Assembly (NCBI GenBank): GCA_900498135.1
Contig: LR026961.1
Coordinates: 1,304,520-1,368,519 of the forward strand
Source of the DNA: an uncultured Desulfatiglans sp.
Lineage (GTDB): Bacteria > Desulfobacterota > DSM-4660 > Desulfatiglandales > Desulfatiglandaceae
DNA: 64,000 bases
Reading direction: 5' to 3'
Shown: positions 4,320-64,000 of the stretch, piece by piece
Numbering within the stretch: the first letter of the stretch is position 1
Layout of the letters: the number at the start of each line of letters is the position of its first letter
Program-made: the position numbers and the translations under genes
The notes under the pieces: generated by a model
Told to the model about the DNA's origin: nothing
Database searches by the model: none
The model's input: only the letters and a program-made list of their open reading frames with translations

Positions 4320-4450
4320 TGTTTCCAATCAAACAACAGGGAAGTTTCTTCACACCCTTCGGATGCTTAGTCCCACCGCTCCGCGGCGGGTCCCGGTTGC
4401 TTCACACCCTTCGGGTGCTCAGTCCCAGCCTTTCCCTGGCGAGAACCAGG
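4320..4450 (+). repeat. dispersed foldback repeat, copy A (two 52-bp modules, decayed right arm)
   Basis: It starts with a relic of the terminal repeat (gtttccaatc). Two tandem copies of a module then start at 4348 (CTTCACACCC TTC GGATG) and 4400 (CTTCACACCC TTC GGGTG), exactly 52 bp apart. Each module has a CACCC/GGGTG hairpin, a GTCCC block and a second GC-rich hairpin. The second module's 3' half and the right arm found in other copies are eroded. It fills the ftsY-smc gap; no gene is seen there. Confidence 0.7.
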
Positions 4451-15530: not shown

Positions 15531-15750
15531 CACCATGGTTTTTTGTCCCCTCCGACACCAACGGGTAGATCTGTTTCTGCGACGGCTCATCTGCCGCTTC
15601 CGCACAAACACTCGCTTTCCTCGATATGGGACAAACCGGAACACGCCCCGAAAAGGTGGCACTAAAGACGCGAAGCGTGTGAAGAAACCGGGACCCGCCG
15701 CGAAGCGGTGGGACTGACCACTCGAAGGGTGTGAAGAAAAACCCGTGTTT
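15531..15750 (-). repeat. dispersed foldback repeat, copy B (two 52-bp modules)
   Basis: Read on the minus strand, two tandem modules end at 15736 and 15684, again 52 bp apart: CTTCACACCC TTC GAGTG and CTTCACACGC TTC GCGTC. The body follows, with a GGAAGCGGC...GCCGTCGC hairpin. The outer stem has GTCCC(AT) on the left and GGGGAC followed by AAAAAACCAT on the right, where other copies have GGCCAAT and ATTGGCC. That paired change preserves base pairing. Terminal repeats are strongly diverged. Confidence 0.7.
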
Positions 15751-24476: not shown

Positions 24477-24623
24477 TTTTCTTCATGCAGCGGTCCTTTG
24501 AAACCAGGTTCGACCCTGGCGAATCCCATCGGAACGGGTTTCTCCTTTGCCCCCCTCATCGCTTGGAACCTGAATGGCTGCAGGCTGCCCAGCGGCCCTC
24601 CGGAAATGATTCCTCGGCACAAC

Positions 24624-24818
24624 CCGGTTTGCAATCCGGGAATGAGGATTTTCCTCCACACGCGGCGCGTGCTCAGTCCCGCCCTTGCAGGGCGGGTCCC
24701 AGTTTGGCCAATATCAAGGAAATCAACCGTTTGTGCGGAGGCGACCTAGTGGTCGCCGCACAAACAAACGGGCAGATTGACGCCAAGATTGGCCAAAAAG
24801 ACCATTTCCCCGCAGACC
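24624..24818 (+). repeat. dispersed foldback repeat, copy C1 (one 52-bp module)
   Basis: The left end (ccggtttgcaatccgggaatg) is a diverged terminal repeat. One module follows: CACACGC GGC GCGTGCTCAGTCCC, then a GCCC/GGGC hairpin. The body GGCCAATATCAAGGAAATCA and the perfect hairpin GCGGCGACCA-type stem (GGAGGCGACC TAGT GGTCGCCGC) come next. The right arm ATTGGCCAAAAAGACCATTT ends in a degenerate terminus. A fragment of a further terminus (TCCGGAAATGATTCCTCGG, near 24600) lies just to the left. Copy C2 abuts it on the right. Confidence 0.8.
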
Positions 24819-24964
24819 CCAGTTTCCATCCGGAAATGAGGATTTTTGGCCAATATCAAGGAAATCAAGCGTTTGCGCGGAGGCGACCTCTGGGTCGCCG
24901 CACAAGCAAACGTGCAGATTGACGCCAAGATTGGCCAAAAAGACCATTTCCGGATGGAAACTGG
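24819..24964 (+). repeat. dispersed foldback repeat, copy C2 (no module, perfect 20-bp terminal inverted repeats)
   Basis: The termini CCAGTTTCCATCCGGAAATG (24819-24838) and CATTTCCGGATGGAAACTGG (24945-24964) are perfect inverted repeats. The two internal halves also pair: TTTTTGGCCAAT with ATTGGCCAAAAA, GCGTTTGCG with CAAGCAAACG, and GGAGGCGACC with GGGTCGCCGC around a 3-nt loop. The 146-bp element is one long imperfect palindrome with no coding capacity. Its right end directly abuts the stop codon of the flavodoxin-like gene. Confidence 0.88.
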
Positions 24965-25429
24965 CTAGTAGATGGCTGCGTCACAGCCGGCCGCCACCGT
25001 TTGCCCCAACTCACGGCACGCCGTCAGGTCCTGTTCCGTCAATTCTCCGCGGGCGATGACCGCTTCATAGATTTTCTTGAGTGGATAACCGATGCAGATC
25101 CGCTCAATCGCCGCAAGAGCGCCTCGCCCATCGTTTCCGGCGCTGACAAAGACCGCATAGGGTTTCTTGAAAACCTTTCTTTCGCCTCTGGCGGATTCGT
25201 AGGTTCTATCGAAGAAATCTTTGAGCGCCCCCGCCATGTACCCGAAATACTCCGGTGATCCGAGGACCAATCCGTCGCAGTCAACCAGATCCGCAAGCGT
25301 TGCCTGGAAGGCCTCTTTCAGAATCACGCGGACGCCCTCCACCTCCCCAGCACCAGCCGCAACGGCTTCCGCCATCTTGCGCGTGTTGCCTCCCTGGGAG
25401 TGATAAACCACCAGGATTGAACAGACCAT
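24965..25429 (-). CDS. flavodoxin-like NAD(P)H-dependent reductase
   Basis: A 154-residue flavodoxin-fold protein. SILVVYHSQGGNTRKMAEAV is the FMN-phosphate loop, and GLVLGSPEYFGYMAGALKDF the second FMN-binding loop. It resembles the NAD(P)H-dependent FMN reductase / multimeric flavodoxin (WrbA-like) group of anaerobes, but the partner is unknown. The stop codon TAG is at the exact junction with repeat copy C2. It diverges from purH. Confidence 0.9.
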   Translation of the reverse strand: MVCSILVVYHSQGGNTRKMAEAVAAGAGEVEGVRVILKEAFQATLADLVDCDGLVLGSPEYFGYMAGALKDFFDRTYESARGERKVFKKPYAVFVSAGNDGRGALAAIERICIGYPLKKIYEAVIARGELTEQDLTACRELGQTVAAGCDAAIY

Positions 25430-34637: not shown

Positions 34638-34777
34638 GCAATGGCCGGCCCGCCCCGCCACCTGAGGCTTGGGACCCCCAGCCCCGGCGCCGCCGGGCGG
34701 GTCCCGGTCTCCTTAAACCTTGCGGGTCATCAGTTCCCCTTCATGTCCATCCGGAAAAGAAGGTTCCCTCGCGAAAG

Positions 34778-34975
34778 AGTTTCCAAGCCGGAAATGAGGT
34801 TTTTTCTGCACGCCCCCTGGGTGCTCGGTCCCGCCGCTTCGCCCGGGGTCCCAGTTTGGGCAAGATCACAGAAACCAAGCGCTTGCGTGGAGGCGCACGG
34901 ATCGTGCGCCGCACAAGCAGCCGTGCAGATCGACGCCAAGATTGGGCAGAAAGACCCTTTCCGGTCGGAAACCCG
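34778..34975 (+). repeat. dispersed foldback repeat, copy D (one 52-bp module)
   Basis: The left terminus AGTTTCCAAGCCGGAAATG is followed by one module (CACGCCCCCTGGGTGCTCGG) and the GGAGGCGCAC GGATC GTGCGCCGC hairpin. Compared with copy C, two stem base pairs (AC/GT against CA/TG) changed together. The right arm ATTGGGCAGAAAGACCCTTT continues into CCGGTCGGAAACCCG, which ends directly before the porin stop codon. A degenerate module-like sequence lies at 34665-34715. Confidence 0.8.
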
Positions 34976-36397
34976 CTAGAAGTCGAAGATCAAGTCGACC
35001 TGCAGCCGGTCTTCGTGCATACGCTCCTTGTTCTTGTTGAACGTGATGTCGCTCGGATCCCAATCCTTGACCGGGTCGGTGTAAAAATACGCCATATCGA
35101 AGCGGACATGATTCAAGGGGCGGAACATCAGTTTGACCTTGTGACCTTCTCGGTTCGCCCCATAAAAATCCTGATCGTTCATGGACCCTATCAGCGCGTT
35201 CCGCTCGATCCGCGCATATTTGTAAGCAACCGCCCACTCTCCCTTCTTCTTGGCTTTGCCCACCTGGAAACCCGCATAGTAGGCGGTATCCTCGTCACCG
35301 GGAACCCGGTCCGCCACATTGACGATGTAGTCCCCCAAAAGCTGAACCGGCAGGGATTTCACCGTGAAATCGACGGTCGTGTAGGCCTCCCACAGGTTGA
35401 AGTCATAGGCATACTGGAGCATTCCCTTGTCGTCCAGCACGAAGGTATTGCCACCGCCGCCCGCATAATCCGCGGTGTGCAGGTATTTGGAATTCTGGAG
35501 GTTGGACCAGTCGTAATAGCTGCCCGCCATGGTCCATTTAACGGCACCCGCCTCATACACATAGCCGGCCTGATAGATATAGAGCATCGCATCGTCGCTC
35601 TCGTTCTTGACCTCGTTCACCACCATCTGCCCGAACTGAACGAACGGGGTGAACTGCCTGAGGCCCGTATACTGATAACGTTCATAGAATCCCTCCGGGT
35701 TCACGTCCGGGTCCCACATGATGTCCGTGTGCAGAAAGGTGTTCTTGAACTTTCCGCCCGTCAGCTCGAGGCCCGGCAGCCATTTGGGCTCGTAAGTGGC
35801 ATACGCCCGATGGAGGTAGATCCCCTTGTCATTGAAGTCGTCGGTGAAACTCTGGTTGGTCGTCGTCGCCTCCCGGTTTGCATCCTGGTTGGTGCAGATC
35901 ATGAAGTGCGTCGAAACCTCTTCGGTGATATCCCCGTCGAAAAACAGGCGCGCCCTCAGACGAAACCGGTCGCGATTCGGCAGATCCTTCACGGAGCCGT
36001 CCGGCTGGGTCTCGCCCCGGCCGTAGATGCCTTCGTAGCGGAGACGCAGATCCCCGGAAACCTTCATGGTCCTAATCCATCGCGGGATAGAGTCTTTCCA
36101 GCTGCTTTCCCGCTTTTCGACCTCGGTCGCCACGGCCTCTTGAACCTCCGCCTTGCGGGTCTCTTCGACCCGTGTCTGCGTCTCTTCGACGCGCGTAATC
36201 GCCCCGCGCTGATTTTCGACCTCCCGCCGCAGCCGCTCGATTTCCTGCTGCTGCTGTTCTATCAGCCTGGTCAAGGCGTCGAGGCGCTCGAGCAGCTCCT
36301 CCTGGCCCACCTCACCGGCCGCGCCAGCATGCGTCCCCATCCATCCGACGAAAAGCAGCGCGGTCGATACCACGAAAAAACCCCATCGTCTTGCCAT
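34976..36397 (-). CDS. putative outer-membrane porin
   Basis: A 473-residue protein. A signal peptide is visible (RWGFFVVSTALLFVGWMGTH, cleavage near AGA-AG). A coiled-coil segment follows at about residues 30-85 (LLERLDALTRLIEQQQQEIE, then two RVEET repeats). The rest is a beta-barrel with many alternating aromatic strands, ending in a C-terminal phenylalanine (LIFDF), the outer-membrane insertion signal. It matches the putative porin family (PF16930). The coiled coil likely forms a periplasmic stalk. The substrate is unknown. ATG 36397 sits 9 nt after GGAGG. Confidence 0.9.
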   Translation of the reverse strand: MARRWGFFVVSTALLFVGWMGTHAGAAGEVGQEELLERLDALTRLIEQQQQEIERLRREVENQRGAITRVEETQTRVEETRKAEVQEAVATEVEKRESSWKDSIPRWIRTMKVSGDLRLRYEGIYGRGETQPDGSVKDLPNRDRFRLRARLFFDGDITEEVSTHFMICTNQDANREATTTNQSFTDDFNDKGIYLHRAYATYEPKWLPGLELTGGKFKNTFLHTDIMWDPDVNPEGFYERYQYTGLRQFTPFVQFGQMVVNEVKNESDDAMLYIYQAGYVYEAGAVKWTMAGSYYDWSNLQNSKYLHTADYAGGGGNTFVLDDKGMLQYAYDFNLWEAYTTVDFTVKSLPVQLLGDYIVNVADRVPGDEDTAYYAGFQVGKAKKKGEWAVAYKYARIERNALIGSMNDQDFYGANREGHKVKLMFRPLNHVRFDMAYFYTDPVKDWDPSDITFNKNKERMHEDRLQVDLIFDF

Positions 36398-57982: not shown

Positions 57983-58118
57983 TCACACCCTCTGTGCTCC
58001 AGTCCACGAAATGGACCTCAAATAAAGAATAACCGCCTCTAGCCTGCAATCCGCATGCACCCGCCAATCGTCCTGCAATAACAAGTCTCAATCCGGAAGT
58101 GATTTTCCGGTAGGACCC

Positions 58119-58262
58119 AGTTTCCAAGCCGGAAATGGTCTTTTTGGTCAATCTCGGCGTCAATCTGCACGTTTGCTTGTGCGGCGACCACCAGGTCACC
58201 TCCGTGCAAACGCTTGATTTCCTTTCTATTGGCCAAAAATCCTCATTTCCGGCTTGGAAATT
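58119..58262 (-). repeat. dispersed foldback repeat, copy E (no module)
   Basis: A short form like C2. The termini AGTTTCCAAGCCGGAAATG (58119-58137) and CATTTCCGGCTTGGAAATT (58244-58262) are inverted repeats with one mismatch. The interior has the GGTCAATCTCGGCGTCAATC arm and the GGAGGTGACC TGGT GGTCGCCGC hairpin on the minus strand. The termini carry AAGCC where C2 has CATCC, changed on both sides together. A further terminus fragment lies at 58091-58110. Confidence 0.8.
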
Positions 58263-59317: not shown

Positions 59318-60670
59318 ATGAAGTCCACTTGGGAGGAGGTCAAGAATCTGCTCAAATCTGAACTTCCAAATAACCATTTTACCCTCTGGATCAATCCGCT
59401 TACTTGTTTGAACCACCATGCCACGCAACTGGTCCTTGGTTGCCCAAACAAGTTTTCCCGAAAATGGGTGAGCGAAAATTATCTTCCGCTCATACAGAAG
59501 AAGTTTCATGAAATCGGGGGAGCAATACCTGAGATCCAGCTTCGCGTGCAACCAGCCGGAACCTGCTCAACTCCCGGAAAAACCGAAGACGAACCCCTGC
59601 AACTCCCATTGCCAGCTATCGGGCTTCCCACCGGTCCAAAGCCACTCAATCGTCTGGGTGATTTTACCTTTGATTCTTTCGTAGTCGGTCCCTGTAACGA
59701 GTTTGCTTACTCCGCTTCGAAAGCCATGTCCTTGAACGAGCGCTGGGATTACCACTCCCTTCTGATGCTGGCTAATACCGGCCTGGGTAAAACGCACCTC
59801 GCCAAGGCGGTCGGATGTCAGCTCCTCCGAGGGAATCCGGGTCTGCGCGTCAACTATGTCACTGCCGAAGACTTCACGAACGAGATGGTTGTGGCATTGA
59901 AAAACAATCAGATCGATCAATTCAAACAGAAATATCGCCGCAGCTGTGATGTTTTACTGCTCGAAGAGATTCATTTTCTTGGTGGAAAGGAGAAAACTCA
60001 GGCGGAATTGGGTCACACCTTGGATGCTCTTGCAAACGACAAAAAGAAAATCATCTTCACCAGCGCCATGCCCCCTAAAGATATCCCCAGCATGTCGAAA
60101 GAGCTGTCCTCGCGCCTGACCTCAGGGCTTGTCACGACCATCGGACGCCCCGATTTCGAAACGCGCACAAGAATTCTCACCAGAAAAGCCGACCAACATC
60201 GCCTCAACCTTGACAGAGAAATCATAAATATGTTGGCAGATGCGTTGAAAAGGGACATACGGCAGATGGAAAGCGCCCTTAAGTGTATTAGGGCAAGATC
60301 AGAATTGCTCAATGTCAAGATTGACCGGCAACTTGTTCGCGATATTCTTTCATCACTGGTTACAATAAACCGATCCTTGACTTCTCAAGATATAGAACAG
60401 ATGGTATGTCAGTATTATAAAATAGACTCTGAAATGTTGCAGTCTAAATCGCGGAAAAAGGTTTTTGCATTTCCACGAAATGTTTATGCGTATCTCTGTA
60501 GGAAATTTACTGATGAAACCCTTGAATGTATTTCAAAACGGATCAACCGCAGCCACTCCACAGTCCTTTACGCTTCGGAGCTGATAGAGAAAAAAATGAA
60601 AACCGATAACGCCATTCGAAAGCAGATTGGCTTTATCAGCGAAAGACTCGAAGAGCTTATTAAATCGTGA
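59318..60670 (+). CDS. dnaA: chromosomal replication initiator DnaA with divergent Walker B
   Basis: A 450-residue DnaA. Domain I is about 1-70, a linker follows, and the AAA+ domain starts near 113. Walker A is ANTGLGKTHL (152-161). Walker B reads DVLLLEEIHF (211-220), where DnaA usually has DDIQF, so both acidic residues are glutamate. SSRLTSGL holds the sensor/arginine-finger region. The C-terminal helix-turn-helix has INRSHSTVLYA, the DnaA-box-binding signature. Spacing and length are normal. It lies in an AT-richer stretch. dnaN does not follow. Confidence 0.95.
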   Translation: MKSTWEEVKNLLKSELPNNHFTLWINPLTCLNHHATQLVLGCPNKFSRKWVSENYLPLIQKKFHEIGGAIPEIQLRVQPAGTCSTPGKTEDEPLQLPLPAIGLPTGPKPLNRLGDFTFDSFVVGPCNEFAYSASKAMSLNERWDYHSLLMLANTGLGKTHLAKAVGCQLLRGNPGLRVNYVTAEDFTNEMVVALKNNQIDQFKQKYRRSCDVLLLEEIHFLGGKEKTQAELGHTLDALANDKKKIIFTSAMPPKDIPSMSKELSSRLTSGLVTTIGRPDFETRTRILTRKADQHRLNLDREIINMLADALKRDIRQMESALKCIRARSELLNVKIDRQLVRDILSSLVTINRSLTSQDIEQMVCQYYKIDSEMLQSKSRKKVFAFPRNVYAYLCRKFTDETLECISKRINRSHSTVLYASELIEKKMKTDNAIRKQIGFISERLEELIKS

Positions 60671-63187: not shown

Positions 63188-63372
63188 AGCTTCCATCCGG
63201 AAATGGTCTTTTGGGCCAATCTCGGCCTCGTTCCTCACCTTTGCCCTCGAGATCCTCGCACCAGGACCTTTTACTTTCCAGGCCATACGCCAAAACGGCT
63301 ACCCGCCCGACAGCGATGGGACTGCGCACCCGAAGGGTGTGAAGAAAAATCCTCACTTCCGGATGGAAACTG
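63188..63372 (-). repeat. dispersed foldback repeat, copy F (one 52-bp module)
   Basis: The termini AGCTTCCATCCGGAAATG (63188-63205) and CACTTCCGGATGGAAACT (63354-63371) are inverted repeats with two mismatches. On the minus strand the module CTTCACACCC TTC GGGTGCGCAGTCCC and a TCGCTGTCGGG hairpin follow the terminus. The central hairpin is altered (CGAGGATCTCG). It ends exactly at the gyrA stop codon. Confidence 0.8.
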
Positions 63373-64000
63373 TTAATCCTCCATTACCTTGGCAACCCCT
63401 GCAACCTTCTCATCCTCAGCCAAATCAATAAGCTTGACACCTTGGGTATTCCTACCGATAGTCGAAATGTCAGCGACGCGGAGCCGAATGATTTTTCCTT
63501 GTACTGTCATAAGCATCAACTGGTCCTGATCGCTCACCTGATAGGCAAAGACCACTAACCCGTTTCTTTCTGTGGTCTTAATGGTCAAAATACCTTTGCC
63601 ACCTCGGTTCTGACGACGGTATTCCTCTGTTCTCGTTCTCTTCCCGTACCCATTTTCTGTCACGGTCAAGATCGTTGCGCCTTCGTCCAGAGCATCCATC
63701 CCGACCACTCGATCTTCGGGATCCATGCGGATGCCCGTGACCCCGGCGGCAATCCGCCCCATCGGCCGCAGCTCCTCCTCCGAGAAGCGGATCGATTTCC
63801 CGAACTGGGTGGTCAAAAAGATATCCTGATTTCCAGTCGTCAAACGCACACCGATCAGCTCATCCTCCTCCCTGATCTTCAATCCAACAATACCGCCTGT
63901 CCGCGGCCGGCTGTAGGCCGTCAAATCGGTCTTCTTCACAAACCCCTGGCGCGTCGCCATTACCACATATTTTCCCTGTTCAAAATCCCGGACGGGCAGG
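63373..64000 (-). CDS. gyrA: DNA gyrase subunit A (C-terminal part; 5' end beyond window)
   Basis: About 209 C-terminal residues are visible, open at the right edge. The segments belong to the beta-pinwheel of GyrA, which wraps DNA: VVMATRQGFVKKTDLTAYSR, GIVGLKIREEDELIGVRLTT, GKSIRFSEEELRPMGRIAAG, RRQNRGGKGILTIKTTERNG and TIGRNTQGVKLIDLAEDEKV. The GyrA-box (QRRGGKG-like) is present as QNRGGKG, supporting gyrase over topoisomerase IV. The stop codon directly abuts repeat copy F. Confidence 0.96.
   Translation of the reverse strand, partial: LPVRDFEQGKYVVMATRQGFVKKTDLTAYSRPRTGGIVGLKIREEDELIGVRLTTGNQDIFLTTQFGKSIRFSEEELRPMGRIAAGVTGIRMDPEDRVVGMDALDEGATILTVTENGYGKRTRTEEYRRQNRGGKGILTIKTTERNGLVVFAYQVSDQDQLMLMTVQGKIIRLRVADISTIGRNTQGVKLIDLAEDEKVAGVAKVMED

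Follow-up and report, generated by a model that had tools for sequence, protein, structure and literature searches.

The window analysed here, a 64-kb stretch (G000:C1:1304520-1368519) of the 4.8-Mb single-contig genome G000, contains members of an apparently undescribed family of MITEs. Its movement very probably depends on an enzyme acting in trans, namely the DDE transposase encoded by an insertion sequence (IS) of the ISNCY family that resides in the same genome. This partnership is supported by the agreement of end sequence, duplication length and target rule between the MITE and the IS. MITEs with a resident IS partner are already known. The original prediction had offered, as one of several possibilities, a MITE-like element moved by an enzyme encoded elsewhere. 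This part of it is upheld, since the elements have target duplications and empty sites and G000 carries an ISNCY transposase whose IS has the same ends.

The prediction centred on the copy C2, a palindrome of 146 bp with identical 20-bp ends at 24819-24964. Both sequence and fold agree with that description, as the ends are perfect and the minimum free energy is -86.6 kcal/mol (z = -12.45 against shuffles). A search of the 64-kb window with the terminal repeat gave seven matches where 0.03 were expected. A search for copies elsewhere in the genome had been proposed as a check, and they are present: G000 carries 442 terminal repeats when one mismatch is allowed and 289 right arms when three are allowed, with zero matches to the reversed-pattern control of each. 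The size of the family in G000 is estimated at about 250-290 copies. At least about 40 full-length copies have 95-97% identity to C2, in a scoring that covered no more than 40 candidates.

The mobile unit is larger than the palindrome. When copies are aligned with their flanks, homology extends 35-36 bp past the left border first assigned to C2. The standard element is 176 bp, and other sizes of 227/228 bp and above are found. It is bounded by 17-bp terminal inverted repeats, GTTTCCATCCGGAAATG on the left and CATTTCCGGATGGAAAC on the right. From left to right, the 176-bp element consists of GTTTCCATCCGGAAATG, which opens a 36-bp unit completed by ATTTCGCGGTAGAACTCA, then an inner repeat copy (GTTTCCAATCCGGAAATGAGG), foldback arms with a central GGCGACC hairpin and finally CATTTCCGGATGGAAAC. 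An additional hairpin module is present in the 227/228-bp class, and the larger forms contain tandem units. The element is classed as a MITE by its short length (176 bp), the absence of a conserved ORF and the 17-bp terminal inverted repeats. The 146-bp palindrome is not the mobile unit, which measures at least 176 bp and includes a 36-bp left unit missing from C2. Nor are the 20-bp ends those of the element; the terminal repeat proper is the 17 bp of GTTTCCATCCGGAAATG, and in the outer CCA/TGG the TGG is the start of a TGGCTA target duplication. The outer 36-bp unit is found in every element that bears target duplications. A 140-bp core was considered as an independent mobile unit and rejected, as no duplication of its own was found.

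One element (L055:200-310, corresponding to L077 3965-4308) has three head-to-tail 36-bp units (GTTTCCAATCCGGAAATGATTTCCCGGTAGAACTCA) at its left end, and the 344-bp element as a whole has its own 6-bp duplication. The triple unit looks like an array of transposase-binding sites.

C2 lies within a complete composite insertion of 370 bp on the + strand (24592-24961), the ends of which match GTTTCCATCCGGAAATG and CATTTCCGGATGGAAAC and which also holds the copy termed C1. At the same intergenic site the sister genome G001 contains a single 228-bp element with one foldback unit and a perfect TGGCTA duplication. Because G001 holds one element at that site, C1 and C2 are, on this alignment, parts of a single old insertion that has expanded in tandem internally. 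Alignment with G001 also places the target duplications of the composite. The left duplication, at 24586-24591, has decayed to TGCCCA (TGGCTA in G001), and the right duplication, at 24962-24967, is still TGGCTA. The outer left-end unit of 35-36 bp with the left terminal repeat (24592-24626, + strand) is that seen in all elements with intact duplications. Next on the same strand comes the first foldback unit (24627-24811), which has the additional hairpin module typical of 227/228-bp elements (compare the 227-bp element L080:16178-16404). The second foldback unit, at 24822-24961 (+ strand), is the C2 palindrome, recognised by its fold and comprising 140 bp of element sequence; the tandem expansion is absent in G001. 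C2 is thus an internal tandem unit of 24592-24961 and not a separate mobile copy, and its identical 20-bp ends are in part a junction effect. The CTA of the right duplication is the stop codon (TAG, - strand) of a flavodoxin-like gene at 24965-25429 (- strand, Pfam).

The list of copies first drawn up for the window stands for four clear insertions and has been revised for the rest: 15595-15743 is a decayed copy (83% over its best stretch), 4345-4398 is a remnant of the hairpin module only, as judged by sequence comparison, and the entries at 24624 and 24819 are not two copies. All six insertions in the window are intergenic, as had been claimed, with respect to genes predicted by a simple hexamer gene caller. 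The copy at 34743-34972 (+ strand) is an older one, identified by genome comparison with G001, in which a 139-bp piece has been lost between direct GGGTCCC repeats. The region missing from G001 (window 34.71-34.85 kb) was considered as an empty site and rejected, since it is this deletion between the direct repeats. In the copy at 58085-58260 (- strand; 94% similar to the reference over its best stretch) the core is inverted relative to the 36-bp outer unit, which suggests an inversion between the inner repeats. The copy at 63189-63370 has both terminal repeats over 182 bp and a diverged interior. Pfam places a dnaA gene at 59318-60670. A second DnaA-like ORF of 454 aa, judged by eye, lies about 9 kb beyond dnaA and past the end of the window (L073:6087-7451; G000:C1:1374606-1375970).

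The exact target duplications are of the type TAnnTA, with a length of 6 bp at 19 sites and 7 bp at seven. The chance of an exact 6-bp duplication at any one site is 1/4096. Position 2 is A in 25 of the 29 listed 6-mers and position 5 is T in 24 of them, both strands being listed. Exact duplications survive in no more than about one third of the elements. Within a 20-kb stretch of approximately 95% identity, three G000 insertions are absent from the sister species G001, which has a single copy of each target. These empty sites are GAACTT for an insertion of 176 bp, GATTTA (GATTCA in G001) for one of 227 bp and CTAGATA for one of 228 bp, and they therefore demonstrate transposition.

At 10 of 41 stop-facing ends the target duplication contains the stop codon of the neighbouring gene, against 7% expected from motif-matched intergenic sites. 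Three of these ends are in the window (24962-24967, 34973-34979 and 63371-63376) and seven are in L073-L087. A TAnnTA target overlaps with TAA/TAG, and the gene stays intact because the target is duplicated. The stop codons inside duplications may thus reflect survivorship.

The autonomous partner was found by a Pfam DDE_Tnp_1 search of G000, which returned 20 loci. Three of these (L115, L118 and L119) are copies of a 1.7-kb IS with GTTTCCATCCGGAAA-type repeats at both ends, and so supply the transposase with the same terminal repeats that had been named earlier as a check. The transposase of 455 aa belongs to the ISNCY family by its score against the NCBIfam profile NF033593 (445.8 bits versus a cut-off of 325), the MITE itself being non-coding. 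Its ORF is uninterrupted in two of the three copies. D146, D358 and E409 are invariant columns of alignment A1, and are the putative catalytic residues by position and motif. MITE and IS have 15-16 bp of identical sequence at their ends, and their right ends agree at 82-88% over 25-28 bp. Their interiors are unrelated. Since its interior is not derived from the IS, the MITE is not a simple deletion derivative of it. IS copy L118 has an exact TAAATA duplication on both sides. No matching target duplication was found at L115 or L119, the latter having TAGGTA/TACCTA. Related IS in MAGs of Desulfobacterales, Deltaproteobacteria and Gammaproteobacteria (L139-L141, L154) have GTGTCCATCCAGAAATG-like ends and duplications of TAATTA, TAGTTG or TAGCTA.

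Pairs of terminal repeats more than 1 kb apart gave nothing useful in 20 stretches each of G000 and related genomes. A 2.5-kb candidate between inward repeats (L073:5907-8415) was rejected as a transposon, as it consists of ordinary host genes between two old copies. A common left flank, ...CATAACA, is found at different places beside IS copy L115 (L115:380-410) and three MITE copies (L053, L031 and L045). For L115 and L053 it extends to about 22 bp, GACAAGAGCCCGTTTCATAACA. The elements may have used a common target or recombined with one another, or the flank may belong to another repeat.

By analogy with MITEAba12 and ISAba12 (PMC6382973), catalysis would take place in trans. The ISNCY transposase would recognise the terminal repeat common to IS and MITE and would then excise or copy the MITE. 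Joining of the MITE to a staggered cut at TAnnTA would duplicate 6 (sometimes 7) bp. After insertion, recombination between the internal repeats could lead to the gain, loss or inversion of units, and the tandem C1 and C2 copy in the window would be a product of this process.

A different DDE transposase, extinct or missed, could instead move the MITE, in which case the ISNCY element would share its ends by common descent only. Such an enzyme would fit the unrelated interior of the MITE and also the distribution of the two partners. With C2 as the query, matches were found in 26 of 61 genomes; a cross-genus consensus query raised matches in 52 of the 85 genomes of the order, so that the presence in relatives for which a search had been suggested is established. 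Identity to this consensus is 94-95% in genomes from two different families. In G016, a member of the same family as G000, the locus matches a record of 'Desulfobacterales bacterium isolate NIOZ-UU19' with 100% identity over 3616 nt, which makes the organism of the window a relative within that family. Of 61 genomes, most of them fragmented, just 7 yielded the ISNCY transposase, and it was not found in G001, a 110-contig draft, despite the many MITEs there. MITEs commonly outlive or outnumber their partner, and 52/85 for the MITE versus 7/61 for the transposase is this usual pattern, subject to the fragmentation of the genomes. Against another enzyme, the resident IS agrees with the MITE at its two ends and in its TAnnTA duplication, and none of the other DDE_Tnp_1 loci among the 20 found in G000 has a matching pair of terminal repeats around the transposase gene. 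A mover other than the resident ISNCY transposase is therefore considered unlikely.

The foldback core is conserved in a different manner across the order than within a genome. Covariation was assessed in an alignment of 18 copies, comprising one copy from each of 16 relatives and two from G000. Across genera, 96.5% of cells are paired and 17 of 46 pairs have changed on both sides, a number as high as that occurring in 0 of 500 shuffles, while slid controls gave 0-5. In each of the 18 copies the fold is better on the C2 strand than on the complementary one, but the sequences are related, and the wobble excess is small (17 versus 8) when only pairs found on both strands are used. These features, together with the approximately one quarter of stop-facing ends that have the stop codon of the gene inside the duplication, are what dispersed structured RNAs or RNA regulators (e.g. 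3′-end stabilisers or terminators) kept for their fold might display. Inside G000, however, 320 cells are broken versus 23 re-paired. In these decaying copies G.T mismatches are about as common as A.C mismatches (39:39 in young copies and 50:58 in old ones), whereas an RNA function should cause G.T to exceed A.C on the sense strand. As pairs break freely and G.T equals A.C, it is not for an RNA fold that copies are retained once inserted. There is no match to Rfam above the gathering score in the 64-kb window, and no site resembling a terminator or promoter; the target duplications, together with the empty sites, show a transposon instead. A catalogued Rfam family would have told against an undescribed element, and the best sub-threshold match, to CRISPR-DR18 at 24822-24850 (- strand), reached 22.6 bits against a gathering score of 50 (E 0.18) and was judged to be due to chance. 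Retention of the copies as structured RNAs is accordingly very unlikely.

For the family as a MITE, these data are read most simply if palindromy is important in source copies, whereas copies that have inserted undergo neutral decay. It is tentatively suggested, as a possibility with clearly less than even prospects, that the core serves the element itself during its life cycle. Because the core covaries across the order while inserted copies decay freely, selection would then act on the active (source) copies. The folded core could bring both ends together for the transposase. Alternatively, one strand of the core could act as an RNA or single-stranded substrate.

The least credible explanation is a REP/REPIN-like family, which a RAYT (Y1 tyrosine) transposase acting on single-stranded hairpins would have spread. 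The repeats are palindromic and intergenic and G000 does encode Y1 transposases, including a 285-aa RAYT-like gene (L182, G000:C1:3263777-3264112). However, the elements are bounded by terminal inverted repeats and by target duplications of exactly 6-7 bp, neither of which Y1 transposition is expected to produce, and their unit is 176-370 bp and not the 20-40 bp of a REP. Near the six Y1 loci there is a single old remnant (69%), beside L182 and on one flank only, which is roughly the density expectation. The sole full-length RAYT-like gene is thus not flanked by the element, and this part of the original prediction is abandoned.

Among known systems, MITEAba12 with ISAba12 is an IS-derived bacterial MITE with duplications on 40% of its copies (PMC6382973). 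The present family is likewise small and non-coding, shares its terminal repeats with a co-resident IS and has duplications of the length made by the IS on a minority of copies (about a third). It differs in its partner, which is of the ISNCY family and makes 6-bp TAnnTA duplications in place of the 9 bp of ISAba12, and in its foldback, which has -77 to -87 kcal/mol in the G000 and G001 cores compared with about -24 to -27. Composite and tandem forms and an order-wide distribution also set it apart from MITEAba12. By description, QMITE2 of Coxiella burnetii (PMC10969869, a review) is of similar size, with long terminal repeats, a predicted strong stem-loop and comparable duplications of 7-9 bp; its host and partner are different. 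REPINs and the GTAG- and CGTC-REPs resemble the family as many intergenic palindromes with dimers and tandem groups, but they are 20-40 bp units tied to RAYT genes (PMC3116915, PMC3733652), unlike the present elements with their long terminal repeats, target duplications and DDE partner. Within the ISNCY family an ISDol1 subgroup has been named (PMC8147514). ISNCY is absent from a 2024 review of prokaryotic MITEs, and a literature search, with ISfinder and subscription papers outside its scope, found no description of the present MITE family.

A probable enzyme can now be named for a very abundant repeat family of uncultured Desulfobacterales relatives, and defined ends and a target rule are available for it. 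Hundreds of copies per genome, dozens of genomes and the empty sites of a sister species form a data set unusually well suited to asking why source copies of a MITE retain the foldback core and inserted ones do not. The element also breaks short-read assemblies of the group, in which contigs end inside it. Related elements (L092, L093 and L101) are located at contig ends of the draft genomes G022 and G033, as expected of assembly-breaking repeats.
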